A stretch of DNA of 62,450 nt, taken from IMG/VR virus record IMGVR_UViG_3300042892_000658, positions 1-62,450 of that record; one strand, given 5' to 3'. This DNA comes from a virus. Numbering within the stretch: position 1 is the stretch's first letter; every line of letters begins with the position of its first letter. This document shows positions 4,648 to 54,233 of this stretch, one piece after another. The position numbers were made by a program, and so were the translations under genes. The notes under the pieces were generated by a model. That model saw only the letters and a program-made list of their open reading frames with translations, had not been told where the DNA came from and did no database searches.

Positions 4648-4677
4648 ATTATAACACAAGTTTCCTAAATTGGTCAA
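4648..4677 (-). promoter_or_regulatory. Sigma70-type promoter TTGACC-18-TATAAT
   Basis: The -35 TTGACC (4672-4677) and a perfect -10 TATAAT (4648-4653) are separated by 18 bp. The promoter lies in the 3' end of the radical SAM gene and fires toward the gene starting at 4641. Counting six bases after the -10 box puts +1 on the A of that ATG. Confidence 0.7.
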
Positions 4678-6154
4678 GCTCGGGGATATAATCTTTTAAT
4701 TGAATATTTCTAGATTCATCTAATCGATCGTTGAATTCAAAAAACAATTTTAATTTTTCTAATTTAATTGATTGAGGCGTTTCAAAGTAACAAACAATCC
4801 CATCAATAAAACTTTGTAACAATTTATCATTTTTATAACAATTTAACTTTTTAATTTTACGTATGCGGTTTAATACCAAGTCCCCGTCGGGAAAAATATA
4901 AGGATTTAATATATCATTTTCAAACTCTGCAAATGAACAGTGTACTAATACATTAGGAAAGTTATCATCGATAAACGTAAGTAACTGATCAAGTTGGCTG
5001 ATGGTATATATTGATACCACTACATTAAATGAAACTTTATGATTTAAACTTAATTTTTTAGTATTTTCTATAGTATTTTCCCAAGAACTAAGCCATCTAA
5101 CATAATCATTAACTTTTTGATATCCGTCAATGCTTACAATAAATTGCAAATTAGAAAAATGACTACATAAACTTAAAAATCGATCGCTAATTTTATTTAC
5201 ATTTGTATTAATAAGGAACTCAAAATTTGTATTTTGATTATCAATACATTTTTGCATAAACTCATATAATTCAATCATTGCTGTAGGTTCGCCACCAGCT
5301 ACATACAATTTTTTTAGATTATCAAATTTAACAAAATCAAAATTAGTATATTCAATAGTTGCGGTTGGATCACGCCACCCTATCTGGATATATTCTTTTT
5401 CTATTAGATTACTATTTTCCGGACCGCATGATCTACACTGCAAATTGCATACATTACTAGGTCGAACTTCATAGTAAACAGGTGTTGTGATATGCTTAAG
5501 ATCTTCTATAGATGTCAACCCGAGTCGATTAGCCCATTCAACTGTTTCTTGTTGTCTTGCACTTTTTATGCCGCGGGCTTCATAATTATAGCAAACAGAA
5601 CAATGATCGGATACTAACTCGCCGGCGAGCATCTTATTTCGTATTGTTACATAATTTGGATCGTCTTGCCACGACGTGATGTTATTTATTTTAGTGATTG
5701 GGTTGGAAGATCTACAACAAACTGTAGTCGATCCATTGTTTGCGAGCATTTCAATGAATGGAAATATACAAAAACTTTTATTTGTATCTACTATATCTTC
5801 AAATAATTTTATATTAGTTGATGTACCCAGTTTTGTTACGTTTACTAAATTTTGAATATCATCTATTATTTTTATTGTTAGATAAAATGCGTCAGGGTGA
5901 TTCCAGGTATTGCTCGGTTGATCAAGTAGTACTACTTCGTCAAATTGAGTTACTAACTCTTTAATCTGTCCAACTGATAGATCAAATACTGAGGTATGAT
6001 AGTATCCATCTTGGATACTCGTATCAGACGATGATATTAGCCCGTTATTAATAGAATAGTTTAATTTAGCTAATTTAGATGTTTCACCGTCGGTATCCGT
6101 TGAATTATTACCCAAACAGAGTACTTTCACTTTATCTGCCTCTGCGCAATACAT
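4649..6154 (-). CDS. Radical SAM protein, twitch/SPASM-like
   Basis: About 501 residues. The cluster motif C236-N-L-Q-C240-R-S-C243 is the CX3CX2C of radical SAM enzymes and is followed by GGEPT, the SAM-binding segment. A Cys-rich stretch upstream (FCIFPFIEM, CCRSS, CSVC) resembles the auxiliary-cluster or twitch region of phage-borne radical SAM proteins. The annotated ATG overlaps the previous gene by 23 bp without a clear ribosome site; a GTG at 6130, one base after that gene's TAA and behind AGAGG, is a good alternative start. The substrate is unknown. An internal promoter at its 3' end serves the next gene. Confidence 0.75.
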   Translation of the reverse strand: MYCAEADKVKVLCLGNNSTDTDGETSKLAKLNYSINNGLISSSDTSIQDGYYHTSVFDLSVGQIKELVTQFDEVVLLDQPSNTWNHPDAFYLTIKIIDDIQNLVNVTKLGTSTNIKLFEDIVDTNKSFCIFPFIEMLANNGSTTVCCRSSNPITKINNITSWQDDPNYVTIRNKMLAGELVSDHCSVCYNYEARGIKSARQQETVEWANRLGLTSIEDLKHITTPVYYEVRPSNVCNLQCRSCGPENSNLIEKEYIQIGWRDPTATIEYTNFDFVKFDNLKKLYVAGGEPTAMIELYEFMQKCIDNQNTNFEFLINTNVNKISDRFLSLCSHFSNLQFIVSIDGYQKVNDYVRWLSSWENTIENTKKLSLNHKVSFNVVVSIYTISQLDQLLTFIDDNFPNVLVHCSFAEFENDILNPYIFPDGDLVLNRIRKIKKLNCYKNDKLLQSFIDGIVCYFETPQSIKLEKLKLFFEFNDRLDESRNIQLKDYIPELDQFRKLVL

Positions 6155-7103: not shown

Positions 7104-8564
7104 TTACTTTTGCCACTCCACTTTTTCGACAACAAACGGATAGTTTGCATCTTTATAAAATTTCTTGCGTGTTGTAATGTGCCGTTTGGCAAACTTACAA
7201 GTTGATGTTACGTCCCATATCTGGACAAAATCTTTGTCTTCTGCTTTACGTATACCTCGACCAATACTTTGTATGACCCGAACAAATGATTTGCCAGGCT
7301 CAATGAGTATAAGATTAAAAATACGAGGAATATTAATACCAACTGCCGCAACACCATAAGTGGCAATAGCAACCACATCATTGTTTGATGCAAACTCATC
7401 GTAACTTTCTTTACGATCATCTGCTTTGGTCCCGCCACTGACAAATACTGCTCCTGCGATCTTTTCTAGCAAGGCTTTGCCCGGAGCAATACGATCTATT
7501 AGGATTAAAGTATTACCCGAACTTCGGATTGATTCTACAAGCTGTGCAATATAATCTAAACGTGCTTCTGTTTCTAATAGATAACGTAGTTCACTTTGAT
7601 AGTCTTTGTATTCTACATAGTCTACAAGTTGTAAGATATTTACATGACATTGTGCTAAGACACCTTGGTCTTGAAGTTCACTAGCACTTAGTTTACCAAC
7701 AACAGGGCCTAGACTACAAAGTAAACTAACCTGCTCATAGGCTTCTTTGGGTATTGTACCAGTTAACCCCCAACGAATAGGTATATGTGCCATTACCCCA
7801 GTGAGCAATGTTTTAAGTGCATCTGCTTTGGCCATGTGTACTTCGTCAACCATAACGCAAACCACACCTTCAATAAATTCACCAATGGTGACATCAACAT
7901 CACCACCCTTGGTATTCTTAAGTAAGATGTTTAGACTTTGCCAAGTACAGATAGTATGTGTACGTCCAAACTCTTTACGATCACCAAAGTATACACCAAC
8001 ATCTAAACCTAAGTTGATATAGTCTGCTTCTGTTTGTGTAACTAATGATTTGTTTGGAACAATAACAATAGTACGTCCATAAGGTTCACAGCTATAACTT
8101 AGTGCCGCTGTGATAAGTGTTTTACCTGCACCTGTGGCAATCTCCTGCAGGCATTGCGGATTCTCAAGGAACTTGTTAATAATCTCAACTTGGTAATCAC
8201 GAAGTACTACTGGTTGACCAGCAATTGGGTGTTTATCTGGCCAAGTCTTGTGTGCAAATGTCTGTTCAGTAACCTGTGAAAATTCAAATTGTGTCCGATA
8301 GTCACGTAGGTCTTCTAGCTGTATGTCGTAGCCACGTTCATCTAAATATGGAATAATTTCTGGAAGTAAGTTAGTATACGTACTGCCGCCCATTTGGAAA
8401 TAAGCTACCTTACCATCCCACCGCCCTAACCTAACTGCGGGCAAGTAACGTGCGCCCGGGATTTCATATTTGAATTTATTGCTGAGAAATTTACGCTCAG
8501 TAAGATCTAGGCCTTCAATCTTTACGTTCACTTCATCTTTAATTAGTAATCTTGCTACGGCCAT
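7104..8564 (-). CDS. uvsW: UvsW-like DNA/RNA helicase (superfamily 2)
   Basis: 486 residues, close to the 503 of T4 UvsW. SF2 motifs are in order: motif I ATGAGKT (143-149), motif II DEVH within CVMVDEVHMA, motif III LTGTIP, and motif VI QSIGRGIRK. The first 115 residues form the small N-terminal domain typical of UvsW. The family unwinds branched DNA and R-loops and drives the switch from origin- to recombination-dependent replication; UvsX, UvsY and gp32 are also in this window. Its start shares bases with the upstream stop (TAATG). Confidence 0.9.
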   Translation of the reverse strand: MAVARLLIKDEVNVKIEGLDLTERKFLSNKFKYEIPGARYLPAVRLGRWDGKVAYFQMGGSTYTNLLPEIIPYLDERGYDIQLEDLRDYRTQFEFSQVTEQTFAHKTWPDKHPIAGQPVVLRDYQVEIINKFLENPQCLQEIATGAGKTLITAALSYSCEPYGRTIVIVPNKSLVTQTEADYINLGLDVGVYFGDRKEFGRTHTICTWQSLNILLKNTKGGDVDVTIGEFIEGVVCVMVDEVHMAKADALKTLLTGVMAHIPIRWGLTGTIPKEAYEQVSLLCSLGPVVGKLSASELQDQGVLAQCHVNILQLVDYVEYKDYQSELRYLLETEARLDYIAQLVESIRSSGNTLILIDRIAPGKALLEKIAGAVFVSGGTKADDRKESYDEFASNNDVVAIATYGVAAVGINIPRIFNLILIEPGKSFVRVIQSIGRGIRKAEDKDFVQIWDVTSTCKFAKRHITTRKKFYKDANYPFVVEKVEWQK

Positions 8565-9732: not shown

Positions 9733-9764
9733 AAAAAGAAGCCCAAATGTTTCCACTTGGGCTT
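9733..9764 (-). terminator. Rho-independent terminator after formate-THF ligase
   Basis: On the minus strand an 11-bp stem (AAGCCCAAGTG with CATTTGGGCTT, one G-U pair) closed by a GAAA tetraloop is followed by CTTTTTCT. It lies about 60 bases after the ligase stop codon and ends the long AAA-ATPase/fhs operon. Confidence 0.85.
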
Positions 9765-9821: not shown

Positions 9822-11441
9822 TTAATCTAATCCTGTAATCTCACCCTTAGAATTGATATCAATCTTTTCTGCGTTTGGTTGTGCTGGTAATCCTGGCATG
9901 GTCATGATGTTGCCGCAGACTGCTACAATAAACTCTGCGCCTGTGCATAGTCTTAATTCACGCACTGTTAGAGTATGTGATTGTGTAGCGGCGTGTTTAT
10001 TAGAGGGATCGTCACTGAAACTGCTCTGCGTTTTAGCAATACAAATTGGATAATTGCCGTATTGTTCTTGCAGTTCATTTAATCGTGCTGTTACTTTAGC
10101 ATCCATATCAATGCCATTGGCGCCATAGATACGTGTGGCTACTTTGTTTAGTTTAGACAATAACGTGTCGCCATCTTCGTAGGTCAACTCCATTTGTTTG
10201 CTAGAACGATCAATAGCAATAATAACTTCGTGTGCTAGTTCTTCTGCGCCAGATCCACCGTTGGCAAAGTGCGTACACTCTACTGCTTCAATGTCAAACG
10301 TTTCGTTAACGTGCGTGATTAACGCATTAATATCTTGGTCTGTATCATCTTTAAAACGATTAACTGCAACAACACAAGGCAAGTTATACCAGTTTTTAAT
10401 GTTGGCTATATGCTTGTCTAAGTTATCGTAGTTGCCTTGATGTTTAACAGCCCTTACAGTTGCTACAAGCACCACTACGTCAGGTTTAAGACCGCTTTTA
10501 CGGCACTTAATGTTGATAAACTTCTCAGCACCTAGATCAGCACCAAAGCCTGCTTCTGTTACTACGTAGTCAGCCAACTTCATAGCTAGTTTAGTAGCAA
10601 TAACACTATTACAGCCGTGTGCTATATTAGCAAATGGGCCACCGTGTACTAGTGCAGGAGTACCTTCTAAGGTCTGCACAAGGTTAGGTTTAACAGCTTC
10701 TTTTAACAAGGCAGCCATAGCACCATGTGCCTTTAATTGCTTGGCTGTAACAGGATTTTTATCCTTGGTATATCCTACAGTAATACGCCCTAGGCGCTTT
10801 TTAAGATCTTTAAAGTCTTCTGCCAGGCACAGTATAGCCATTACTTCCGACGCCACAACAATGTCAAATCCTTCCTCACGGGTAACGCTGTTATGCGCAC
10901 CTAAACCTACTACGGTTGAACGTAGACTACGATCATTCATTTCACTTACACGACGCCAAGTGATACGGTTAGTGTCTAGGTTTAATTCATTACCCCAATG
11001 CAGGTGATTGTCAATCATCGAACTTAGTAAGTTATGCGCACAGGCAATAGCGTGGAAGTCACCTGTAAAGTGTAGGTTAATATCTTCCATCGGTGCTACT
11101 TGCGCATAGCCGCCGCCAGTTGCTCCGCCCTTCATACCAAATACTGGACCTAGCGCAGGCTCACGTAAACACACAATTGACTTGTATGCTAGTTTACGCA
11201 GTCCGTCGGCTAGGCCAATGGTTGTTGTAGTTTTGCCTTCGCCAGCAGGTGTTGGAGTTACAGCAGTAACTAAGATCAACTTGCTATCACGACCGGGACG
11301 TTTTGCAAGTTGATCTATGTTTAGTTTGGCTTTCCTACTACCGTATACTTCTAACTGTTCATCTCGTACATTAATAGAACTAGCAATTGCTGTAATAGGT
11401 AGTAGTTTGGCCGCTTGGTTGATTTGGATATCTGTTTTCAT
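9822..11441 (-). CDS. fhs: Formate-tetrahydrofolate ligase
   Basis: 539 residues, near full length for the family (about 555). The nucleotide-binding loop [16 protein letters not shown], the downstream [18 protein letters not shown] and the METGDFHAI-type segment ([11 protein letters not shown]) are intact, so it looks active. The enzyme joins formate to tetrahydrofolate using ATP, making 10-formyl-THF for purines and formyl-Met-tRNA and feeding one-carbon flow. It is the last gene of an operon that begins with an AAA+ ATPase and five tiny membrane or secreted proteins. A full-length fhs is unusual in a T4-like phage; an auxiliary metabolic gene from a host-like source is inferred. Confidence 0.95.
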
Positions 11442-11630: not shown

Positions 11631-11631
11631 A

Positions 11632-11820
11632 TTATTTGTTTCCTTTGTTTAAATTGTCAAGAGTTTTATTGATGCTACTGGTTAATCTACCCAATTGAAT
11701 CCAAACAGCATGAGCACGACCTAGGCAGTAGCCAAATATAGCACCCCAAAACCACATCATTAGAACCACTTCACCGGTGGTAAGTGGACGACCTAATTTA
11801 AAATATTCTAACCATTCCAT
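11632..11820 (-). CDS. Small membrane protein, unknown
   Basis: 62 residues with one clear transmembrane segment (about 17-38, VVLMMWFWGAIFGYCLG) followed by an amphipathic C-terminus (LTSSINKTLDNLNKGNK). It lies between two other tiny membrane genes at 1-bp spacing. Holin-like or superinfection roles are possible but nothing in the sequence decides. Confidence 0.55.
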   Translation of the reverse strand: MEWLEYFKLGRPLTTGEVVLMMWFWGAIFGYCLGRAHAVWIQLGRLTSSINKTLDNLNKGNK

Positions 11821-12325: not shown

Positions 12326-13348
12326 TTATGCCGCTTTCATACAAGTTGTCTTAGCCATAGCTTGCCAATTTAGCGGAAAGCTCTTGTATAGCTGTGCTAC
12401 CTTAATTGCCATACGCAAACTCATTTCACGGAACTTGTTTTTGTTAGCATCTAAAAAGTCGATAATTTCATCTTGACCAATATCACTAATACCCAAGTCT
12501 GAAAACATTTCACCTTGTTTAGCAATCTGCTTAATACGCAATACTTTATCACGCATTGTGTCTAATGTTAAATCTAAATAGTGACAGCGTGATTGTAGTG
12601 CTTCTAAGTGATCTTTTAAGCGTGTTGACTTAACAGCGTCAAATTTCAAGTTAGTAATAAAAATTACACTGCCTTTAAAGATAAAACTGTTTGGGATGTC
12701 TTCTTGTTTAAGCACACGTGACTCTGATAACCAACTAATTTTACGCGACTTACCACTGTCCAACGCACCTTTAAGCAAGTTCAAACTAACGTCATCAAAC
12801 AAAATGCTGTCACAGTCATCAAACACAATAACTGAATTCTCATCGCTGTATTCATACAATTTTTTGTACAAACCAATAGCACTAGCACTACCTTTAACTA
12901 CTTCGTGTTTAGGTTTTGCATTAGCAATATTTTGGAATAAGTTAGCACGTTCAATTTGACCTTCTACTGTATAACTCTTACCAACACCAGGAGGGCCACT
13001 TACAATCAGCGCACGAATGTCGCCATTTAGCACTGCTTTAGTCATGTTGTCTAAGATTTCAAAACGTTCGCCAATTTCAGCAATACGCTCTTCGTCTGTT
13101 TGTTTAGCATGTGTGTCCACGCCCTTAACCGCCACCTCGCCTGTGTATTCTGTTGCGTCTACTAATTCGTACTCTGTAGGACTAGAGATAGTAACACGTA
13201 TTTTATCTTTACCAAAACGACCAGTGCCGTCTACAGTGATAAAACCACCTTTGCTACCTAATTGAAATTGTTTTACTAGAGGAAATACTTCATCTGTAAT
13301 TGCTTGATTACGATAAGTACCATTTTTAATTTTAACAAAACCTGTCAT
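12326..13348 (-). CDS. AAA+ ATPase
   Basis: 340 residues. Walker A GPPGVGKS at 118-125, Walker B VIVFDDCDS at about 170-178, and a sensor-1-like IFITNLKFD near residue 230. The first 90 residues are a separate beta-rich domain (KIKNGTYRNQAITDEVFPL). Related AAA proteins occur in T4-like phages without firm function. It heads an operon with five tiny membrane or secreted genes and fhs, driven by a strong sigma70 promoter containing an inverted repeat. A role as remodelling ATPase is inferred; the target is unknown. Confidence 0.75.
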   Translation of the reverse strand: MTGFVKIKNGTYRNQAITDEVFPLVKQFQLGSKGGFITVDGTGRFGKDKIRVTISSPTEYELVDATEYTGEVAVKGVDTHAKQTDEERIAEIGERFEILDNMTKAVLNGDIRALIVSGPPGVGKSYTVEGQIERANLFQNIANAKPKHEVVKGSASAIGLYKKLYEYSDENSVIVFDDCDSILFDDVSLNLLKGALDSGKSRKISWLSESRVLKQEDIPNSFIFKGSVIFITNLKFDAVKSTRLKDHLEALQSRCHYLDLTLDTMRDKVLRIKQIAKQGEMFSDLGISDIGQDEIIDFLDANKNKFREMSLRMAIKVAQLYKSFPLNWQAMAKTTCMKAA

Positions 13349-13409: not shown

Positions 13410-13438
13410 ATTATAACACCTCTGCAGGTGTTTGTCAA
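13410..13438 (-). promoter_or_regulatory. Perfect sigma70 promoter with an inverted repeat in its spacer
   Basis: TTGACA (13433-13438), 17 bp, TATAAT (13410-13415). The spacer and -10 edge hold ACACCT-GCAG-AGGTGT, a 6-bp perfect inverted repeat ideally placed for a repressor. It drives the AAA ATPase/fhs operon about 60 bases downstream. Confidence 0.85.
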
Positions 13439-13561
13439 GTACTTTATGGAGGGGATTTAGGATGCTGTTACGACCGGAACAACCCTTAGTAGTAACGTTA
13501 ATAAAATTAAAATGTAACAACACCCTAAAACTGTGAAATCGTTTCCTAACTGTCAAATGCT
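13439..13561 (-). other. Transcribed-looking stretch without a convincing gene
   Basis: About 120 bp between two strong promoters that point the same way. The only open frame across it (13371-13556, 61 codons) has random-looking composition, no ribosome site, and runs through the downstream promoter, so I do not call it. It could be a long leader or a small RNA made from the upstream promoter; no terminator is visible within it. Confidence 0.3.
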
Positions 13562-13590
13562 ATTATACTATCATTTGGTTAGATTGTCAA
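13562..13590 (-). promoter_or_regulatory. Sigma70 promoter TTGACA-17-TATAAT
   Basis: Perfect -35 (13585-13590) and -10 (13562-13567), 17-bp spacer, just after the stop of the 95-residue gene. No ORF begins soon after it; it fires into the 120-bp non-coding stretch and on toward the AAA ATPase promoter. Confidence 0.75.
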
Positions 13591-13595
13591 CCGCT

Positions 13596-13883
13596 TTAGT
13601 AATTAAGTTGGCGGAAGTCTGAGTATGGAATTGTGTAGTTGTTAGCACGAATAATTGCGACTAACTCTTTGGCAGCCGCGTTGTAAAAACGTACAAATTG
13701 ACGAACTTGCCCACCGCTACGTTCGCCGTCGCAGGTTAAGTTCTCTGGGCTTAGGTCATTGTCTAAACTATCATACAAATTTTGACAATCACGTTCTGAT
13801 AAGTTATTAACATCATAGGTTACATTATTGAAAATACGTGCCCAAGCATTTTTCTGTTCAATATACTGTGCTAGATTTTTCAT
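13596..13883 (-). CDS. Small phage early protein, unknown
   Basis: 95 residues, helical, with two cysteines. Its start lies behind GGAGCAACTA and a repeated consensus promoter, indicating early, strong expression independent of its neighbours. No domain recognised. It is flanked by promoters on both sides, making it a single-gene transcription unit. Confidence 0.6.
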   Translation of the reverse strand: MKNLAQYIEQKNAWARIFNNVTYDVNNLSERDCQNLYDSLDNDLSPENLTCDGERSGGQVRQFVRFYNAAAKELVAIIRANNYTIPYSDFRQLNY

Positions 13884-13887
13884 TAGT

Positions 13888-13947
13888 TGCTCCTGTGTTG
13901 TTAGTGTATGTATAGCATTATACAGTCATTTTACCAAAATGTCAACC
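13888..13947 (-). repeat. 60-bp promoter repeat, copy 1
   Basis: This block is identical to 15155-15214 over 60 bp and shares 48 bp with 14493-14540. It carries the -35/-10 pair, the transcribed leader and the ribosome site, so whole promoter-leader cassettes appear to have been duplicated with or without their genes. Confidence 0.85.
13917..13945 (-). promoter_or_regulatory. Perfect sigma70 promoter TTGACA-17-TATAAT
   Basis: -35 at 13940-13945, -10 at 13917-13922. It drives the 95-residue gene, with a leader of about 25 bases ending in GGAGC. Confidence 0.85.
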
Positions 13948-13948
13948 G

Positions 13949-14476
13949 TTATTTTGGATTAACGAATCCTTCTACATCAAACTCATATACCTTATTACCG
14001 GCTTGAAAAAACTCCGGTTCTACCATAACTTTCGATGCTCCTGCAAGTTCTTTGATAAATTGGGTGTTAGACCCATTACACATCCAGATTCTCTCTGAGT
14101 TATAGTTAACATCTGCGCAGAATGTGTATTGTTTAGGCGGACGATTATCAATCTTAATACGAACCTGGCAACCTTCCCAATTGTTGCATATTAGCTGTCC
14201 TTTGTTCACCATAAATTTAACACCGCCAGAATTGAATACCACAATAGTTCCTTGACTGCCACCATTATACGGGAATTCAAAATCTATTAAATTTTTGCTA
14301 TCTGTATAGGTATATTTGGTAATCTTCCCATCCATTTTGTCAGTGTTAGTACCAGAAGTCCAATTTGGTTTAGCTTCCTCTAATTCAACCATTGGGCTTT
14401 CATCTGAAGTATGTTGACTCGGACTATCACAGCCTGTTAGTGCAATTATGCCAAATATTATAAGAAATTTTTTCAT
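13949..14476 (-). CDS. Predicted lipoprotein, unknown
   Basis: 175 residues with a short hydrophobic signal and lipobox LTGC (C16), so the mature protein should be lipid-anchored in the envelope. The mature part has several cysteines (CNNWEGC, FCADVNY, MWCNG-like) that could form disulfides, and is beta-rich. It has its own repeated consensus promoter. Phage-encoded lipoproteins often act in superinfection exclusion, which fits early expression here, but this is inference; no family recognised. Confidence 0.7.
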   Translation of the reverse strand: MKKFLIIFGIIALTGCDSPSQHTSDESPMVELEEAKPNWTSGTNTDKMDGKITKYTYTDSKNLIDFEFPYNGGSQGTIVVFNSGGVKFMVNKGQLICNNWEGCQVRIKIDNRPPKQYTFCADVNYNSERIWMCNGSNTQFIKELAGASKVMVEPEFFQAGNKVYEFDVEGFVNPK

Positions 14477-14492
14477 TTACTTCTCCTAGACC

Positions 14493-14540
14493 GTTAGTGT
14501 ATGTATAGCATTATACAGTCATTTTACCAAAATGTCAACC
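14493..14540 (-). repeat. 48-bp promoter repeat, copy 2
   Basis: Identical to the 48-bp core of the 60-bp repeats at 13900-13947 and 15167-15214; it diverges upstream of the ribosome site. Confidence 0.85.
14510..14538 (-). promoter_or_regulatory. Perfect sigma70 promoter TTGACA-17-TATAAT
   Basis: -35 at 14533-14538, -10 at 14510-14515, overlapping the end of the previous gene. It drives the lipoprotein gene, whose ribosome site is AGGAGAAGTAA. Confidence 0.85.
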
Positions 14541-14746
14541 AAATTAAATGGGCTATCTTTCAATGGGATCTTAACAAACTTGCGTCTACTTTTATTAAGT
14601 TTTTGTTTGTGTGTGTAATAGATGGGAGGACCCTCGCCCCACTTTTGGTAGCCTAAAGTGCGCTCACCGTCCATTAGGTACACGTGGTTGGGCTGTCGGT
14701 AATCAACAGCCCATTCAGTGACTTCTTTGAGGACTTCTATGGCCAT
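14519..14746 (-). CDS. Small conserved phage protein, unknown
   Basis: 75 residues from the ATG of MAIEVLKEVTEWAV; the longer frame to 14767 lies inside the previous gene. The ATG shares a base with the previous stop (TAATG). It has a compact, basic C-terminal half (KLNKSRRKFVKI). I recall similar short proteins in phages of varied hosts, without function. Co-translated with the LPD29-like gene. Confidence 0.6.
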   Translation of the reverse strand: MAIEVLKEVTEWAVDYRQPNHVYLMDGERTLGYQKWGEGPPIYYTHKQKLNKSRRKFVKIPLKDSPFNLVDILVK

Positions 14747-15150
14747 TAAGCATACTCTCTTGTACACTCGTATGGGCTATCCCACTCACCTACATTTAAA
14801 TGAATGTAATAGGCAATATGGAAATAATCTATTTGCGAATCACTTTTATCAAACCAAGCACGACCACCAGCACGAGCTGGAGCACACTTGATAATTTCTA
14901 ATACCTGATCAAAGAACGCTTCGTACTTGCCATAGTTATATAAATGATATTCGTTGATTTGAACATATTTACGTTTAGTAGGCAAATGACCATCATCAAA
15001 CACTTCAGCAAAATCAACTGGACCCTGTTTAATAGTTACATCAACTGAACTGCCCGCATAACCTTTACGTACACCAAACTTGAATTTAGGAAACGCTGCT
15101 TTAAGTTCATCACGTATTGCTTTTACATCTTGTGCGTTAATATAAGCCAT
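14746..15150 (-). CDS. LPD29-like domain protein
   Basis: 134 residues. The N-terminal half (AQDVKAIRDELKAAFPKFKFGVRKG... SVDVTIKQGPVDF) fits the LPD29 family, a small module often carried on large polyvalent proteins of phages and conjugative elements and also found alone. Its role is not established. It lies behind a duplicated consensus promoter and is coupled to a second small gene. Medium confidence in the domain. Confidence 0.6.
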   Translation of the reverse strand: MAYINAQDVKAIRDELKAAFPKFKFGVRKGYAGSSVDVTIKQGPVDFAEVFDDGHLPTKRKYVQINEYHLYNYGKYEAFFDQVLEIIKCAPARAGGRAWFDKSDSQIDYFHIAYYIHLNVGEWDSPYECTREYA

Positions 15151-15154
15151 TTAT

Positions 15155-15214
15155 TGCTCCTGTGTTGTTAGTGTATGTATAGCATTATACAGTCATTTTA
15201 CCAAAATGTCAACC
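15155..15214 (-). repeat. 60-bp promoter repeat, copy 3
   Basis: Identical over 60 bp to 13888-13947, including ribosome site and promoter. Confidence 0.85.
15184..15212 (-). promoter_or_regulatory. Perfect sigma70 promoter TTGACA-17-TATAAT
   Basis: -35 at 15207-15212, -10 at 15184-15189. It drives the LPD29-like gene and its coupled partner, and overlaps the last codon of the preceding gene. Confidence 0.85.
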
Positions 15215-15604
15215 AAAAAGTGCTAATTCCTGCAATACTTCATCAAATTCTTTAGCATAACTGTATGGTAGACCTAACTTGTAGCAGATGTAATCGCCAC
15301 CGTACATTTTATCAGAATCCGTAAGAGCCAACCCTTCAACAATCCATCTAATAGATTGTTTGCGTGAGTTGCTAATTGACTCCAATGAAGCGACATGCTT
15401 TTCAAAACTAGCGATTGCTAATTGTTCACGGGTTTGTTCTTCCTTGACTGCAACATCGAGTTCACCCAATAAACGTTCCCAAATGAACTGTTTGCCTGCC
15501 TCATCAATGTTGGTCCATTCTTCCCAAAAGTATTCATCTGGACGTGAACCACGTGCATCTTTGTGTAGGTCGCTAACTAAGTTTTCATCAAATGTGTATG
15601 CCAT
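15209..15604 (-). CDS. Small phage early protein, unknown
   Basis: 131 residues from the ATG of MAYTFDENLVSDLHKDARG, which has GGAG six bases upstream; the in-frame codons further 5' lie in the leader. The opening FDENLVSDLHKDARGSRPDE and WEEWTN look like a conserved signature of small phage proteins, but no function is known to me. The protein is acidic and helical. Single-gene unit with its own promoter. Confidence 0.6.
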   Translation of the reverse strand: MAYTFDENLVSDLHKDARGSRPDEYFWEEWTNIDEAGKQFIWERLLGELDVAVKEEQTREQLAIASFEKHVASLESISNSRKQSIRWIVEGLALTDSDKMYGGDYICYKLGLPYSYAKEFDEVLQELALFG

Positions 15605-15636
15605 TGTGTGCTCCATTGCTTTAGTGTATAAGTGCT

Positions 15637-15665
15637 ATTATACAGTAAGTCAACCAAAATGTCAA
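15637..15665 (-). promoter_or_regulatory. Sigma70 promoter TTGACA-17-TATAAT
   Basis: -35 at 15660-15665, -10 at 15637-15642. A second TTGACT lies inside the spacer at wrong spacing. It drives the 131-residue gene. Confidence 0.8.
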
Positions 15666-15672
15666 CCAAAAT

Positions 15673-15846
15673 CTAATAGGTTTCTTTGGTGATGTAAAAC
15701 TCTTCTTTGGGATATTTTGCGATAAAATCTTCTGTGGCCACGTACTGATTAAGTCCAGTCATGTTGAAGAATTGTTTATGAAAAGCTGTGGTGTGTGTTG
15801 CCTTAACGCTGACTGTAAGATATACTGAGGTTGCTTTGCCTGCCAT
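15673..15846 (-). CDS. Small protein, unknown
   Basis: 57 residues read from the sequence (MAGKATSVYLTVSVKATHTT...), with AGGAG about ten bases before the ATG. It lies 13 bp after the 66-residue gene and shares its promoter. No motif recognised. Confidence 0.5.
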   Translation of the reverse strand: MAGKATSVYLTVSVKATHTTAFHKQFFNMTGLNQYVATEDFIAKYPKEEFYITKETY

Positions 15847-15859
15847 GATTGTCGTGCTC

Positions 15860-16060
15860 CTATTGGGCTAACTTTGTGAAAATGCTCTGTTGAAGTTCTG
15901 CTACTTCGTCGTTTGGTACATAGTAATCTGTTGTTGGATCATAGTACTCACCAGCAGGTGCATCATAGTATAACACACGACCGTTTGGATAATGGAATGG
16001 ACCTTCTAGGCCTTTACGAGCACCATATTCTTTGCCATTTTGGAAAACTACGTATGCCAT
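15860..16060 (-). CDS. Small Tyr-rich protein, unknown
   Basis: 66 residues, unusually rich in Tyr and Pro/Gly (FHYPNGRVLYYDAPAGEYY). It starts after AAGGAATAGGCAT and is driven by the promoter at 16092. No family recognised. Confidence 0.5.
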   Translation of the reverse strand: MAYVVFQNGKEYGARKGLEGPFHYPNGRVLYYDAPAGEYYDPTTDYYVPNDEVAELQQSIFTKLAQ

Positions 16061-16091
16061 ATGCCTATTCCTTATTAACTAAACAAGCATC

Positions 16092-16120
16092 ATTATACGC
16101 TATTTTGGTTAGTTTGTCAA
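16092..16120 (-). promoter_or_regulatory. Perfect sigma70 promoter TTGACA-17-TATAAT
   Basis: -35 at 16115-16120, -10 at 16092-16097, at the end of the glycan-cluster gene. It starts the early small-gene array. The spacer differs from the three identical promoter repeats. Confidence 0.85.
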
Positions 16121-20933: not shown

Positions 20934-20945
20934 TGTATGTCCCTT

Positions 20946-20978
20946 TAAAAAGTAACAGCACTTTTGGCGCCGTTACTT
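20946..20978 (-). terminator. Hairpin with U-tract: terminator or attenuator
   Basis: A 10-bp stem (AAGTAACGGC with GCTGTTACTT, one G-U) with a 9-base loop is followed by a run of T. It can terminate the SleB transcript, but the promoter at 20997 lies upstream of it, so transcripts for the 48-residue gene must read through. Confidence 0.65.
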
Positions 20979-20996
20979 CTATTTATTAAAACACTT

Positions 20997-21025
20997 AGTA
21001 TAGACTATTTTTGAGCAGTTGTCAA
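20997..21025 (-). promoter_or_regulatory. Sigma70 promoter TTGACA-17-TATACT
   Basis: -35 at 21020-21025, -10 at 20997-21002, overlapping the stop codon of the SleB-like gene. It fires toward the hairpin and the 48-residue gene. Confidence 0.75.
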
Positions 21026-21583
21026 GTTCTTTCTACGTGGAGCTGGGTCATCGCTGTAAAAGATGTGTCCGCCAATACGTGTAATACGTTCTAATCCCCA
21101 ATTTGGGCGAACGTGTGTATTATGAAAGTATAGTGCTTCTGCCATGGCTTCATTTTCTAAACGTAGTCCAGAATACATAACTTCTCGAGCTACATCTAAA
21201 CTAGCCTGCCATCGATCGCTGACAAACTTAACTGGTGCTGGTGGATTGCATACCCACGAAAATTGACACACAGTTTTAACCGCAGGTTTGTTTTCACGTA
21301 CTACTGTTACCTGTGTCTTTTGATTAACTACACCGCAGACTGTTTTAGGAAACTTGCCATCTTCGGCACGATTAAGCGTAACCTGTGCTACTGCTACCAT
21401 ACCATCACGACTTTCTAATCCTGCTTCATAGTATACGTTTTTTGCAAGGCACATTAGTTGAGTATCAACTTTTGGCTTTGCGGGTACTTCTTTTGCTTGA
21501 ACATTAAATGTTGATAGTGCTATAACCATTATGGACATATTTGTCCAGGTCAGTATTTTTTTGAGTGGCGTGAACGCTCTCAT
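21005..21583 (-). CDS. SleB-type cell wall hydrolase (candidate endolysin)
   Basis: 192 residues. From residue 43, MCLAKNVYYEAGLESRDG...VAQVTLNRAEDGKFPKTVC and ALYFHNTHVRP match the Hydrolase_2 (SleB/CwlJ) family of lytic peptidoglycan enzymes; E53 is the likely catalytic acid. The N-terminus (residues 13-30, hydrophobic, ending VQA) is a signal peptide or signal-anchor, so export through Sec is likely. It may be the endolysin or an entry/exit lysozyme. Strong GGGGGG-type ribosome site. Confidence 0.8.
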   Translation of the reverse strand: MRAFTPLKKILTWTNMSIMVIALSTFNVQAKEVPAKPKVDTQLMCLAKNVYYEAGLESRDGMVAVAQVTLNRAEDGKFPKTVCGVVNQKTQVTVVRENKPAVKTVCQFSWVCNPPAPVKFVSDRWQASLDVAREVMYSGLRLENEAMAEALYFHNTHVRPNWGLERITRIGGHIFYSDDPAPRRKNLTTAQK

Positions 21584-21624
21584 ATCTTTCCCCCCTGTTA
21601 GTATTTTTGTCTTACTTGGATTAC

Positions 21625-29577: not shown

Positions 29578-30987
29578 TTAGAAGTTGTACTGCAATTGCA
29601 CACGCAATGCATCTGCTTTAAAGTTAGCATAGTCTTGTTTTGCTATTGTAGTAGCAGTTGCTCCTGTTACTAAATTGCTACGGTTCATATGATGATAGTA
29701 AGCTACTAATTCAACTTCCGGAGCAATTTGCCATTCAGCACCTGCCTCCCAGTCGTTAACCTTATTCATTGGTGAGTTAGTTTCTGCTTTCGACGCACCA
29801 TCAAAGTATTGCCATCTAACAAATGGAATTAAAGTACCATTAGTATCTAACACTTTGAAATTGTCAATCTTATACATAGTTTGAATGTAGCCACCGTTTA
29901 AGTTGGTTTCTTTAATAATGCCGTCAGTGCTAGCAGCGGTATCTAAGCCAGGAGTTTTACCCCAGTTCCACTCACCTTGTAGACCAATTGGCTGTGGGTA
30001 CATCATAAAACTTACACCTACACGCTCATCTTTAAATCCAGTTGTGTTGCCTGCTTCTAATGTTGGTGTTTTAGTTGCGTAAACGTTGTTGCCCATATTT
30101 TTTCTATAAGCACTGCCTGTTCTTACATACTTGCCTGAGTACCCTTGTACGCCAGCTTCGTAGATTTGACCGCTTTCAGTTTTCCATGGGTAAGTAGCAC
30201 GTGCTACCACATGGTAGTTGTCGTTACGATCTTGTTGGTTAGCACCTTGACCGTTATATATACCTACACCAAACATACCGTAGTTACCCGAATGTTTTAA
30301 ACCGCCGTCTTGAATTTCTTTAAATAGCTTTTGGATATTGTCCGGTGTGTAGTAATAAAACGCACCCAAATCACGCTCGTCACGTACTGCACTATTAAAT
30401 GCGTCAGCGCGATCAAGTGCTAGACGATTTTGTGAAGACTGTAAGTTTTCAAAGCCATACGGTACTTTACTTTGCCCAACACGAACGCGGTGCACTTTGT
30501 CTTTAGTCAAGTTAACATCGCCATAAGCATCGCGTAATTGCGCAACGTTACCTGTAGTACCTGCTGTACTAGCAAAGTCAGGTTGTATGTAATAATCTAA
30601 ACGGTCACCTGCTGAACCAGAAATGATCACACGTGCTCGACGAATAAGAAAGTTTTTGTCTTGATCAGCAAGAGAGTTTTTATCACCTACAGATCGATCT
30701 GACCAAAGGTTAACTCCTTTATCATCACTGAGCATAGTAGTATTACGCATTTGTAAATAACCACGAATGTTCATTTTACTTGCCGCATGTACAGTAGTAT
30801 CTTTTTCTTTTTTAGCAGCGCCTGTTTCTCCACTGTGTCCTTTGTTTAATAATGCGCCTTCTTCTTCTGTAAGTACACCTTTCATAACTAGTGCGTTAAC
30901 AATGTCAGTGGTGCTGTCTGCGTATGCCGGTGCAGCAATTAATGTTAGTGCTACAAATAACCCTGTGAAAATATTTTTTAATGTCAT
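29578..30987 (-). CDS. Phosphate-selective porin (OprP/OprO-like)
   Basis: 469 residues. Signal peptide cut near residue 23 (AYA), a short helical linker (DIVNALVMKGVLTEEEGALL), then a 16-strand-type barrel with ARVIISGSAGDRLDYYIQPDF, RVRVGQSKVPYGFENLQSS and a terminal aromatic (LQYNF), as in OprP/OprO porins that admit phosphate or polyphosphate. It follows pstS by 9 bp and shares its Pho-box-like control. Confidence 0.85.
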   Translation of the reverse strand: MTLKNIFTGLFVALTLIAAPAYADSTTDIVNALVMKGVLTEEEGALLNKGHSGETGAAKKEKDTTVHAASKMNIRGYLQMRNTTMLSDDKGVNLWSDRSVGDKNSLADQDKNFLIRRARVIISGSAGDRLDYYIQPDFASTAGTTGNVAQLRDAYGDVNLTKDKVHRVRVGQSKVPYGFENLQSSQNRLALDRADAFNSAVRDERDLGAFYYYTPDNIQKLFKEIQDGGLKHSGNYGMFGVGIYNGQGANQQDRNDNYHVVARATYPWKTESGQIYEAGVQGYSGKYVRTGSAYRKNMGNNVYATKTPTLEAGNTTGFKDERVGVSFMMYPQPIGLQGEWNWGKTPGLDTAASTDGIIKETNLNGGYIQTMYKIDNFKVLDTNGTLIPFVRWQYFDGASKAETNSPMNKVNDWEAGAEWQIAPEVELVAYYHHMNRSNLVTGATATTIAKQDYANFKADALRVQLQYNF

Positions 30988-30996
30988 AATGTTTCC

Positions 30997-31998
30997 TTAT
31001 TTGATTCGTTTAATTAAGTCTTTAATTTTAATGCCTACTTCTGGAGTACCGTTAAATCCTGTACCTGGTTTTAGTGCTTTGAAATGTTCTGTTACTGCCG
31101 CATAGTCATCATTTGGTAGCGGAACATACTGTACTTCTTTTACTAACTTGGGCGCATTTTCTAAATAGAAATTTACAAATGCTTTTACTTCTGGTCTGAA
31201 CGCAGCCGCTGTTGCGTTTACATAGATAAACAATGGACGACTTAATGGTTGATATGTACCGTTCATAACTGCTTCCGGACTTGGTATTACCGGTGTTGCT
31301 GTTCCTTTAGCGATAATAGGAATAGCACGCAATTTGTCTTGGTTAGATTCGTAATAAGCATAACCAAAGTAACCCAAACTACCCGGATTGCCTGCTACCC
31401 CTGTTACTAGAACATTGTCATCTTCACTTGGGGTATAGTCACTGCGACTTGATTTAGCTTTACCGTTGACCGCTTCAGTGAAGTAGTCGAATGTACCAGA
31501 AGCCGTACCTGGGCCGTATAAAGCTAAGGCTTTGTCTGGGTAAGCTGAATTAACTTGTTTCCAGTTTTTAACTGAGCTGCCCGGTGCCCAAATTTTGTTT
31601 AGTTCTGCTACTGTTAAACTTTTCACCCAGTCATTTTTACTGTTTACTACTACAGTAAGCGCATCGTAGGCAATTGGTAATTCAATGTACTGTACACCTG
31701 CTTCTTTACAAGCATCCATTTCTTTTTGTGAAATAGGACGGCTAGCATCACTGATGTCAGTTTCGCCACGGCAGAATTTTTTGAAACCGCCACCTGTGCC
31801 ACTTTCACCTACAGTTACTTTGACACCTGTTTTCTTTTGGAATTCTTCTGCTACTGCTTCTGATATTGGATAGACAGTTGAACTGCCATCTATTTTGATC
31901 ATTTTGTCTGCGGCTTGAACTTGTTTTAATCCGGCCATTGTTACAGCAAATGCTATTACTACATAATACATTATTGATTTAACCTGTTGTATGGTCAT
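30997..31998 (-). CDS. pstS: Phosphate-binding protein PstS
   Basis: 333 residues. Signal peptide cut near residue 29 (VQA), then IDGSSTVYPI, GESGTGGGFKKFCRGETDISDASRPI and GPGTASGTFDYF, which form the phosphate-binding loops of PstS. It works in the periplasm with the host PstCAB transporter, which is absent here. The 7-4-7 direct repeat upstream resembles a Pho box, so host PhoB could switch it on when phosphate is scarce, as shown for pstS in cyanophages. Ribosome site AAGGGGA. Confidence 0.92.
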   Translation of the reverse strand: MTIQQVKSIMYYVVIAFAVTMAGLKQVQAADKMIKIDGSSTVYPISEAVAEEFQKKTGVKVTVGESGTGGGFKKFCRGETDISDASRPISQKEMDACKEAGVQYIELPIAYDALTVVVNSKNDWVKSLTVAELNKIWAPGSSVKNWKQVNSAYPDKALALYGPGTASGTFDYFTEAVNGKAKSSRSDYTPSEDDNVLVTGVAGNPGSLGYFGYAYYESNQDKLRAIPIIAKGTATPVIPSPEAVMNGTYQPLSRPLFIYVNATAAAFRPEVKAFVNFYLENAPKLVKEVQYVPLPNDDYAAVTEHFKALKPGTGFNGTPEVGIKIKDLIKRIK

Positions 31999-32036
31999 TA
32001 ATATTCCCCTTATATGTATTATTTAAACACACAAAG

Positions 32037-32054
32037 ATTACAGTAATGTTACAA
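32037..32054 (-). promoter_or_regulatory. Candidate Pho box upstream of pstS
   Basis: TTGTAAC-ATTA-CTGTAAT on the minus strand: two 7-bp units with a 4-bp gap, as in PhoB sites (CTGTCAT-n4-CTGTCAY). The second unit matches in six of seven positions, the first in four. An AT-rich -10-like stretch follows about 11 bp later, in the spacing used by Pho promoters. Confidence 0.6.
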
Positions 32055-32082
32055 ATAGATTAAATTTTTAATACACTTAATC

Positions 32083-32112
32083 AAAAAAAAGCCCGCCGAA
32101 GCGAGCTTTTTT
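32083..32112 (-). terminator. Rho-independent terminator after the porin gene
   Basis: A 12-bp stem (AAAAAAGCTCGC with GCGGGCTTTTTT, one G-U pair) around a TTCG tetraloop, with a run of T. It separates the porin from the Pho-controlled operon. Confidence 0.9.
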
Positions 32113-32136
32113 AATTATTAAACTAAGAAGTTAATC

Positions 32137-33345
32137 TTAGAAGAATAAGATAGCACCTGCTGATACCGAACGTGATTTACCTTCTGCACCGTTTTGTGCT
32201 TCTGATTTAACGTCTGAGTATTCAGCTACTAAGTTTACGTGTTTTGTAAGTGGGTGATAAGCACCAACAGTCCACATTTCGTTTTTCGAAACTAAAGCTG
32301 TAGCTGTTTCGCTACTGTTACGATCTAATTTACTTTGACCATAACTTACACCAAGTTTAGTTGCTGTAGGCAATGTGTATGTACCTTGCACGTAACCGCC
32401 GTTTGAATCACGACGTTTACCTGTAGCATCAAAGCCGTCTAGCAATTGAATTGTACGACCAATACCTTTACCATCATAGTAGTAAGCAGTCAAGCCATAC
32501 GGACCAGCAGCTAAGTTTGTACCAACGTCCCAAGCATAAGCGCGATCATCTGCACTAGCACCAGTTACGCCTTCAACTTTTTGTGTGATAGCTGATGACC
32601 AAACTTTGGCAGCGATAGGGCCTTCTAATGAGTATGATACTTTACCTTCAAATGCTGGCTGAGCACCGCCACGTCCTGTTGAAGTGGCTGAAGCGTTAGT
32701 TACTGCGCTAGTAGCATTTAAGTCAGCTGATTGAGCATTCCATGCTTGCGTTACGCCAGCTGTGAAGCTAAAGCCATTGAAGTTTGGTGACGTGTAAGCA
32801 ATTTGTGATTTCCAGTCAGCGTACATATAGCCTGTACCAATACGACCTAGTGTAGTTGTATTACCTGCTAAGGCACCAGCACCTGCACCAACGCCTAATA
32901 ATGTCATGTCGTTTAAGATAGCATCGCTAGCAAAAATACCTAAGTCTTTACCTAGTTTTACACTGCCCCATGATTTGTCACCGATGGTTAAGAATGCTTG
33001 ACGATTTTCTTGATTAGCGCCTTGATCGCCGCCCTGTGTTGTAGAAGCACCAGGATTGATAGCGATCGTAAAACCAATGTCTAGATCATTTTGACGTGAT
33101 TTACCGGAAATTGATAATACGTTTGGTAATAAACCAGTTGTAATATTTGATTCGTTACGTTGACCATTGGCATTAGGACCGCCAAGGCCACCAACCACTG
33201 CACTGCCTGTGCCACGTGTGTTTGTGTAGTAAGCGTTAACTACGCCACCGATGTCTAGAGTCCAATCACCTGCTGGAATTACGATGCCAGCGTGGGCAGT
33301 TGAATACATACTTGCTAATAATGTTGCTAATAATAATTTCTTCAT
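32137..33345 (-). CDS. General porin (betaproteobacterial type)
   Basis: 402 residues. Signal peptide cut near residue 19 (AHA), then a 16-strand-type barrel with short Gly/Asn loops (RQNDLDIGFTIAINPG, LGKDLGIFASDA, KLGVSYGQSKLD) and a C-terminal Phe (AGAILFF) as the assembly signal. The style is that of Gram-negative porins of Betaproteobacteria. It has its own strong promoter and terminator. Nutrient entry or replacement of the phage receptor are both possible roles. Confidence 0.85.
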   Translation of the reverse strand: MKKLLLATLLASMYSTAHAGIVIPAGDWTLDIGGVVNAYYTNTRGTGSAVVGGLGGPNANGQRNESNITTGLLPNVLSISGKSRQNDLDIGFTIAINPGASTTQGGDQGANQENRQAFLTIGDKSWGSVKLGKDLGIFASDAILNDMTLLGVGAGAGALAGNTTTLGRIGTGYMYADWKSQIAYTSPNFNGFSFTAGVTQAWNAQSADLNATSAVTNASATSTGRGGAQPAFEGKVSYSLEGPIAAKVWSSAITQKVEGVTGASADDRAYAWDVGTNLAAGPYGLTAYYYDGKGIGRTIQLLDGFDATGKRRDSNGGYVQGTYTLPTATKLGVSYGQSKLDRNSSETATALVSKNEMWTVGAYHPLTKHVNLVAEYSDVKSEAQNGAEGKSRSVSAGAILFF

Positions 33346-33498: not shown

Positions 33499-34785
33499 TT
33501 AGTAACGATAAGTATCTGACTTATATGGGCCTTCAACTCTAACACCAATATACTTGGCTTGATCAGCTGACAACTCTGTTAGTTGCGCACCAATCTGTGC
33601 CAGGTGTAACTTGGCTACTTTTTCATCTAGATGTTTTGGCAACAAATGAATACTACCTGTATTGTAATCTTCCCAATTTTGGAACATTTCAATTTGTGCT
33701 AACACTTGATTAGTAAAACTGTTTGACATAACAAAACTAGGATGTCCTGTGCCGCACCCTAAGTTTACTAGACGACCTTTGGCTAAAATAATAAGTTTAT
33801 TACCGCTAGGCATGGTAACGTGATCAACTTGTGGTTTAATTTCATCCCACTCGTAGTTAGCTAAACTAGCAATGTCAATCTCACTGTCGAAATGTCCAAT
33901 ATTACACACAATAGCATTGTGCTTCATCGTATTCATATGGTCATGTGTGATAACATTGATATTACCTGTAGCTGTTACAAAAATGTCTGCTTTATCTGCG
34001 GCATAGTCCATAGTAACCACACGATAGCCTTCCATGGCCGCTTGTAAGGCACAAATTGGATCTACTTCAGTTACCCAGACCTGCGCACTTAGAGCACGCA
34101 ATGCGGCGGCACTACCTTTACCCACATCACCAAAACCTGCTACTACTGTTACTTTACCAGCAATCATCACGTCAGTGGCACGTTTGATTCCGTCCACTAA
34201 ACTTTCACGGCAACCATATAGATTATCAAACTTAGTTTTAGTTACGCTATCGTTTACATTAATAGCACGTAAGTGGAATTCTCCATTGGCGATCGCTTCA
34301 TTGATTTTATGAATGCCAGTGGTTGTTTCTTCAGTAACACCACGGATTTCATTTATCAAATCTGGACGGTTATGGTGCACCCAATATGTTAGATCATGCC
34401 CGTCATCTAGCAGCATGTTGGGACGCCAATTATCAGGGCCACTAAGTGTTTTCTCAATACACCACCAGTATTCTTCTTCTGTTTCGCCCTTCCACGCAAA
34501 CACAGGAATGCCCAAGTCTGCTAACGCGGCCGCGGCGTGGTCTTGTGTACTAAAAATGTTACAGCTAGACCAGCGCACTTCTGCGCCCAAGGCAACTAGT
34601 GTCTGCACTAATACCGCAGTTTGAATAGTCATATGTAGACTACCTGCAATACGAGCGCCTTTGAGTGGTTGTGTTAGTTTGTACTCTTCTCTGACTGCAA
34701 TTAATCCGGGCATTTCCGTTTCTGCAATGGCTATTTCTTTGTGCCCCCAGGCTGCTAGACTGATATCTTTTACTTTGAAATCCAT
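33499..34785 (-). CDS. ahcY: S-adenosylhomocysteine hydrolase
   Basis: 428 residues. The NAD-binding [13 protein letters not shown], the substrate-side segment [11 protein letters not shown], the conserved HFDSEIDIA and the C-terminal KSDTYRY are intact, so it looks active. The enzyme removes SAH, the product inhibitor of methyltransferases, giving adenosine and homocysteine. It is last in a coupled accessory operon with two methyltransferases upstream and a B12-type radical SAM protein, all potential SAH producers. Full-length and rare in T4-like phages. Confidence 0.95.
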
Positions 34786-52657: not shown

Positions 52658-52665
52658 TATTTATC
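52658..52665 (-). promoter_or_regulatory. Late octamer GATAAATA with predicted leaderless start
   Basis: It lies five bases from the ATG at 52652, with the same spacing as at 50361, and overlaps the terminase stop codon. Confidence 0.6.
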
Positions 52666-54233
52666 TAGAATATAAAGAATGGCATGGGCTCGACTATGTC
52701 TTCCAAGCTATCTTTCATATTATAATCAATTTGACTGTCGAAACTCTGTAGTAACATAGCCATGCGCACTACTAGGATAAGTGCCATAACTAAATCATCT
52801 GTTTCACCTGGTTTAGCAGCATAGCTAGGACCATTGGCTACAAACGTTTTAAGTTCTGATATAAGTGGTTTACTTACAATGGTCATACGCTTGCTTTCAA
52901 TTAAGTTCTTTAATTTAGCGCATGCGGAGATTTTGGTTGAGTTAGTTGTGTTAAAGCCCTTGCGATATCTACGACCACTACCCGGACGTTTAGGTTCACT
53001 TAGGAATATACCTTTAAGATTTTCCTCGCCAATTTCACTAATGGATATAAGTGCAGCTTCACCTAAGGTGTTGTTTTCAACGCTGTAGTAGATATTGTTT
53101 TGGTTAACTGTTTCGTTTAGGTAGCGTAGGATTTCAGCTAGGATACCTACTTGTTGCTGTACAGGTGTACGATTGTGTTGCCATTCACCTACTTGTTTAA
53201 ACGTGGGTAACTCAAAGATCTGTATACCAGCGGGGTCGCCGCCAGTACCCAGGCTTGGGTCTAAACTGACTACATAGGTATACTGCGGTTCTGGCTTTTT
53301 ATACCAGCGTACCTGTCCTTGACGTTCTATAGGGTCTAGACCTGCAAGCTCAACTAGCATACTAGGATTAATTAGAGTTTCATCCCAGATGATAAATTCA
53401 CAATCCATTTCACGTCGGAAACGTTCATCACCTAGCTGTGCCCGTTGTTGGCTAGCCCACTTTTCATCGCGGTCTGGATGTTCTGCCCAATAGCTACGGA
53501 ATGATTTAAACCCGTTAACACCAACTTCTGTTGGATTACCAAACTCATCAAAGCACTTGTTAGCACCTTTCCATAGGGTAGCAAACTGGTCTTCATCGCT
53601 GTTAGGCGTTGAAGTAATAATACACTTACCACCAGTTGCTAGTGTGGGACTTATAGCAGTCCAAAATTCTCGTCCTATGGTAGGGCGAACGAATGCAAAC
53701 TCATCTGCATATAGTAATGATATAGACATACCACGACCAGTGTTTTCAGTTGTTGTGGCTGAAACTATTCGACTACCATTATCAAAATCAATACTACCTT
53801 TGTTGTAACTCACAGCACCTGCACGTATAAAGTCGGGTACGCTTTCGTAAGCGTAGCGAATACGTTGCATGATTTCTTGTGAGCCTGTGTATTTGTGTGC
53901 GGCAATTAGGATAGTACTATCCGGTACGAACATAGCGTACCATAACAAGTAACCAGCGGCACTTGTTGACTTACCTGTTTGTCGGGGCATTAGCGATATG
54001 CTAAAGCGATAGTTATGATATGTATGGATTAAGCGTTTTTGATAGTCAAACGGGGCATATAGCATACGTCCTTGGGTAGGATGTTGTATATAGAAGTAGT
54101 TACTCATAAAGTATTCCGGTCCGTCTATAGGATCTGAGCATTTTACGAATTCTTGTAGCTGTTCATGTGTAAAAGACGTTTGTTGATGCGGCTTTTTTAC
54201 TAGAACGTTATCTGTACCTTTTGCTGTTGCCAT
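52665..54233 (-). CDS. 17: Terminase large subunit, gp17-like
   Basis: 522 residues. Walker A-type MPRQTGKST (82-90), Walker B ISLLYADEFAF, coupling motif STPNSDEDQ, and the RNase H-like nuclease start VVSLDPSLGTGGD. This is the packaging motor ATPase and headful nuclease. The ATG has a late-like octamer TATAAGTA five bases before it (54239-54246), suggesting the same leaderless layout as two neighbours. Confidence 0.93.
   Translation of the reverse strand: MATAKGTDNVLVKKPHQQTSFTHEQLQEFVKCSDPIDGPEYFMSNYFYIQHPTQGRMLYAPFDYQKRLIHTYHNYRFSISLMPRQTGKSTSAAGYLLWYAMFVPDSTILIAAHKYTGSQEIMQRIRYAYESVPDFIRAGAVSYNKGSIDFDNGSRIVSATTTENTGRGMSISLLYADEFAFVRPTIGREFWTAISPTLATGGKCIITSTPNSDEDQFATLWKGANKCFDEFGNPTEVGVNGFKSFRSYWAEHPDRDEKWASQQRAQLGDERFRREMDCEFIIWDETLINPSMLVELAGLDPIERQGQVRWYKKPEPQYTYVVSLDPSLGTGGDPAGIQIFELPTFKQVGEWQHNRTPVQQQVGILAEILRYLNETVNQNNIYYSVENNTLGEAALISISEIGEENLKGIFLSEPKRPGSGRRYRKGFNTTNSTKISACAKLKNLIESKRMTIVSKPLISELKTFVANGPSYAAKPGETDDLVMALILVVRMAMLLQSFDSQIDYNMKDSLEDIVEPMPFFIF

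Follow-up and report, generated by a model that had tools for sequence, protein, structure and literature searches.

What does a gene for formate-tetrahydrofolate ligase (FTHFS, fhs) do in the genome of a phage? The gene lies in a stretch of 62,450 nucleotides (positions 1 to 62,450 of IMG/VR record IMGVR_UViG_3300042892_000658), which was analyzed whole and is referred to here as the window. The phage genes of the window include a terminase, a tail tube gene, UvsW, and a RecA-like gene. Because its terminase is 55% identical to those of PA5oct-type phages (about 287 kb) and its UvsW is 56% identical to that of Sinorhizobium phage Phosso (469 kb), the window is, by homology, a fragment of a jumbo-phage genome with PA5oct, Phosso, and Atu_ph07 as its kin. 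At 29578-33345 a phosphate-selective porin, a PstS-like binding protein, and a Gram-negative porin adjoin, the last of which is 93% identical in a 177-kb relative (record G001); these genes suggest phosphate-uptake cargo and a Gram-negative host. Radical-SAM proteins are encoded at 4649-6154 and 35502-37388, one of them with a B12-binding match, and the 177-kb relative has at least five twitch-domain radical SAM family matches (L292-L300).

The fhs gene of the window is real and intact. Its reading frame runs uninterrupted from an ATG, and the product matches the NCBIfam equivalog PRK13505 over residues 1-538 (788.9 bits, cut-off 652) and Pfam FTHFS (PF01268) over model positions 1-555 of 556 (778.9 bits, cut-off 27). 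An AlphaFold model built from a 46-row alignment, used in place of one from 15 near-identical rows (pLDDT 41), has a pLDDT of 84 and a pTM of 0.88. A structure comparison against the PDB gave a TM of 0.93 with 7xzn and 7c11, placed 27 solved FTHFS chains at a TM of about 0.9, and returned no non-FTHFS fold close to the model. The product is an ordinary member of the FTHFS family. The term full-length, used in a preliminary description of the locus, is apt for the reading frame and for coverage of the Pfam model, but not for one loop, where about 17 residues that follow VRAVK-G in nearly all cellular enzymes are missing.

About 30 IMG/VR contigs carry fhs of the window's clade. A peptide-pattern scan of IMG/VR recovered 27 fhs loci, and two further members of this clade came from a second scan; a separate scan of 2.9 million contigs for the motif PTPAGEGKT, which misses PSGEGKT copies, gave 27 contigs, 18 of them of the window's clade. 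Some records labeled as phages of Staphylococcus, Listeria, or Enterococcus have an fhs at about 50%; as host DNA may be present in them, they were not counted as phage evidence. The phage-only clade is fully supported (UFB 100, SH-aLRT 100), and its sister consists of four other IMG/VR sequences (98/95), in one of which a T4-type RNase H gene adjoins fhs. In the tree, both viral clades lie on the gammaproteobacterial side, which includes Methylococcaceae among many others. Phylogeny, proposed as a route to the donor lineage, leads as far as this side of the tree but not to a close donor, as searches by bacterial class found no cellular fhs closer than about 60% identity. In one further contig (IMGVR_UViG_3300035498_000744, 114 kb) the FTHFS gene has one in-frame TAG, and this is possibly a stop-recoded phage.

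The surroundings of the gene are conserved in kin, with the AAA gene, the 376-aa gene, and UvsW as flanks of a variable slot. Nearly all fhs-bearing kin have fhs in this slot, and phage genes flank it in dozens of contigs, yet it is altogether absent from 12 of 15 further records examined. In contig L143 the small membrane genes run directly into the 376-aa gene, and in contig L086, which shares 90% identity with the window in the AAA gene, two other genes take the place of fhs. A 259-kb record has fhs elsewhere, 79% identical, whereas most other shared proteins are 30-75% identical. An ORF with an HNH-like motif (HHIIPKSLGG) lies between the 376-aa gene and UvsW of L086 (4098-4802) and is likely a homing endonuclease.

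Within the window, an AAA ATPase gene opens a run that continues through five small ORFs, most of whose ends touch or overlap, and closes with fhs, after which comes a strong terminator-like hairpin (Table 1). The proposed place of fhs at the end of an operon is therefore confirmed. The perfect sigma70 promoter said to precede it is present as well, but the nearest such site lies some 2 kb upstream of fhs, in front of the AAA gene, and not at fhs itself. This site is one of seven perfect TTGACA-N17-TATAAT sites on the minus strand within 13410-16120 (2.7 kb), against 0.06 expected per strand; the others start at 13590, 13945, 14538, 15212, 15665, and 16120. Three of the seven form a dispersed promoter element, with an identical spacer and identical downstream bases (TTTTGGTAAAATGACTG ... 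GCTATACATACACTAAC). Since kin, those without fhs included, have one to five perfect sites upstream of the slot, and the 259-kb record has none within 10 kb upstream of its fhs, the array goes with the AAA operon and either predates fhs or does not depend on it. An 11/12 site closer to fhs was rejected as its promoter; it overlaps a gene junction and the ribosome-binding region and was judged a coincidence. No THF, ZTP, or SAM riboswitch was found in the window. The fhs operon may be expressed early, as the promoter type named in the preliminary description implies.

Table 1 Features of the fhs locus and its phage context (window coordinates unless a record is named)
Feature	Position	Strand	Basis or remark
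UvsW-type helicase	7104..8564	-	conserved flank
Predicted protein, 376 aa	8564..9694	-	conserved downstream flank, slot marker
Intrinsic terminator-like hairpin, 11 pairs then CTTTTTCTCT (T-run)	9739..9764	-	directly after fhs
fhs, formate-tetrahydrofolate ligase (FTHFS), 539 aa	9822..11441	-	ORF, NCBIfam, Pfam, AlphaFold model
Small membrane-type ORF, 56 aa	11460..11630	-	immediately upstream of fhs; sequence reading
11/12 promoter-like site	11631..11660	-	nearest fhs, doubtful
Small membrane-type ORF, 62 aa	11632..11820	-	ORF list, sequence reading
Small membrane-type ORF, 53 aa	11822..11983	-	sequence reading
Small membrane-type ORF, 43 aa	11997..12128	-	start overlaps previous stop; sequence reading
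Small ORF, 65 aa	12128..12325	-	ORF list
AAA ATPase (PHROG 1250)	12326..13348	-	first gene of fhs operon
Perfect TTGACA-N17-TATAAT promoter-like site	13410..13438	-	heads fhs operon
S-adenosylhomocysteine hydrolase (ahcY)	33499..34785	-	present in lineage with or without fhs
Terminase large subunit	52665..54233	-	marks window as phage
GTP cyclohydrolase I	G001 176711-177424; G010 66524-67195		

We propose that this jumbo-phage lineage probably carries a functional FTHFS that raises 10-formyl-THF for thymidylate and purine synthesis completed by the host. The gene, as cargo at the end of the AAA-ATPase operon, would have strong sigma70 promoters of the host type driving its transcription. In the infected cell the enzyme would join formate to tetrahydrofolate using ATP, leading to more 10-formyl-THF, which host PurN and PurH would take directly for purine rings. 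Host FolD would convert 10-formyl-THF to 5,10-methylene-THF for use by phage ThyA in making thymidylate, and phage DHFR would regenerate THF. In this scheme we infer when fhs is expressed, that the enzyme is active, which way the flux runs, and which nucleotides it serves.

The partner genes of 13 fhs-bearing records bear on this proposal. Searches for FolD, Formyl_trans_N, and ThyX gave nothing above cut-off in any of them, so that the flux would depend wholly on the host; matches to FolD at E ~1e-4 were discarded, as they fall on the NAD domain of SAH hydrolase. Thymidylate synthase (ThyA) and DHFR occur together in exactly the two largest records (177 kb and 259 kb), and the window, itself a genome fragment, shows neither thyA nor folA. 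GTP cyclohydrolase I (folE) is found in the same two records, 81% identical between them, but is weaker evidence because it also serves deazaguanine synthesis. It is among the most conserved proteins shared by these two distantly related phages. A 202-kb record without fhs also lacks thyA, folA, and folE; as its major capsid gene is missing too, it is a fragment and uninformative on co-occurrence. A broader version, which we put forward tentatively, is that jumbo phages keep a formate-entry folate branch of their own, consisting of FTHFS and, in the fullest genomes, ThyA, DHFR, and GTP cyclohydrolase I. A streamlined, phage-specific enzyme might then let formate replace serine as the C1 source for viral DNA.

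Alternatively, FTHFS could mainly feed the methyl cycle, with host FolD and MetF carrying its product to methyl-THF and on to methionine and SAM, and with phage SAH hydrolase recycling SAH. The SAM would serve phage methyltransferases and radical-SAM enzymes, several genes for which lie in the window. SAH hydrolase is encoded in 10 of the 13 fhs-bearing records, and T4-like methylotroph phages of Lake Baikal have SAM-cycle genes and methanol dehydrogenase (PMC7678222). We nevertheless consider this alternative unlikely. All four fhs-minus kin with at least 25 kb of sequence upstream of the slot also have ahcY, 11-25 kb away by their coordinates, so ahcY goes with the lineage and does not depend on fhs. 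The two genes are some 22 kb apart, and in the 177-kb fhs-bearing record ahcY appears interrupted (G001 20935-21612, L293:935-1612), with 232 codons open and the middle of the protein missing. The pairing of fhs with SAH hydrolase in the preliminary description is weakened by these findings. Its wider suggestion, that the phage steers one-carbon flow, is plausible for nucleotide synthesis, given the low dN/dS, the catalytic residues, and thyA, folA, and folE, and loses ground where it leans on SAH hydrolase.

We assign a still lower probability to a reversed reaction, or a role in formate and ATP balance, in a C1-oxidizing host (methylotrophic or formate-producing), where ATP would be gained from 10-formyl-THF. 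The FTHFS reaction is reversible, and the phage clade sits on the side of the tree that includes Methylococcaceae, albeit among many others. However, the scanned parts of the window and of the 177-kb record showed neither methanol nor formate dehydrogenase. A methylotrophic or formate-rich host, said in the preliminary description to suit such gene content, is possible, but FTHFS is not diagnostic of methylotrophy because it is common among the genomes sampled, being present in 178 of 385 Alphaproteobacteria (46%) and 74 of 369 Gammaproteobacteria (20%).

Returning to a catalytic FTHFS that supplies nucleotide synthesis, the residues of the active site are largely those of cellular enzymes. 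The catalytic loops had been called intact, and this is borne out by K70 and T71 of the P-loop, R93 and E94 of the REP motif, and N361 and F363 of the folate pocket, which are all kept and are invariant in 15 phage homologues. The GG of the FANGG motif is also present, and the P-loop reads PTPSGEGKT in some phage copies. In the Peptostreptococcus anaerobius enzyme the folate pocket comprises N381, F383, and the folate-stacking W411 (PMC10696740). By the phmmer alignment from which residue equivalences were taken, W411 corresponds to F392 in the window protein; 13 of 15 phage copies have F at this position, as do 5 of 36 cellular rows. All full copies of the phage clade are 535-539 aa long and lack the same loop of about 17 residues. 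This shared deletion, together with the few sites that are invariant in cells and differ in phage copies, could indicate that fhs is retained for a non-catalytic role, such as binding folate or a host protein, with the deletion marking an altered function. We find this very unlikely, since the phage enzymes retain every ATP-site residue tested and most of those of the folate site. The loop itself is dispensable because two termite-gut alphaproteobacteria lack it too and other viral copies have a shortened version.

Selection on the gene points the same way as its catalytic residues. The median dN/dS of phage fhs is 0.11 (86 pairs), and most pairs that include the window copy have a synonymous divergence close to 1 or higher; by these estimates, phage fhs is under strong purifying selection and is selectively maintained. 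A grouping with widely spread phage copies of no metabolic effect had been named as the outcome that would count against a role for the gene. The window copy indeed falls among phage copies, yet these are few in number and strongly constrained. Because the gene is patchy in kin yet under purifying selection, it is best described as optional cargo that, by this evidence, is functional. Neutral cargo picked up recently by chance, or bacterial contamination of the contig, might account for the patchy presence but is scarcely credible for a phage-specific clade with this divergence and a dN/dS of about 0.11 whose members lie between phage genes in dozens of contigs.

Phage-borne FTHFS is a rarely recorded kind of virus metabolic gene, whereas phage genes for nucleotide supply are already established. 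We found no paper on a phage FTHFS in open-access full text, and the window protein has no match in PHROGs v4 or BFVD, so that phage annotation built on these resources would miss it. A phage FTHFS would add a formate entry point to the folate reactions that phages are known to carry, beside thymidylate synthase and dihydrofolate reductase, and the use of formate in infection would become testable by isotope labeling.

The phage enzyme is homologous over its whole length to the cellular enzymes of solved structure (Moorella, Methylobacterium, Peptostreptococcus, and Tepidanaerobacter) and shares their fold, P-loop, and folate-site residues. It differs in being phage-borne, in its identity of about 60% at best, in the missing loop of about 17 residues, and in having mostly F at the W411 position. 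The Lak megaphages of Prevotella are likewise jumbo phages with a full FTHFS gene, which is unannotated in GenBank. They are different phages, however, and their FTHFS is 43% identical to that of the window, has a nearly full loop, and lies on a long branch. The Lake Baikal phages, for which methanol dehydrogenase, purM, and SAM-cycle genes are described, similarly have genes for which a role in directing C1 and nucleotide metabolism has been proposed, but the sections concerned do not mention FTHFS as phage-encoded (PMC7678222). Finally, phage thyA, folA, thyX, and folE have the same inferred purpose as fhs, namely deoxynucleotide supply, and FTHFS is set apart from them in that it would provide the C1 unit itself.
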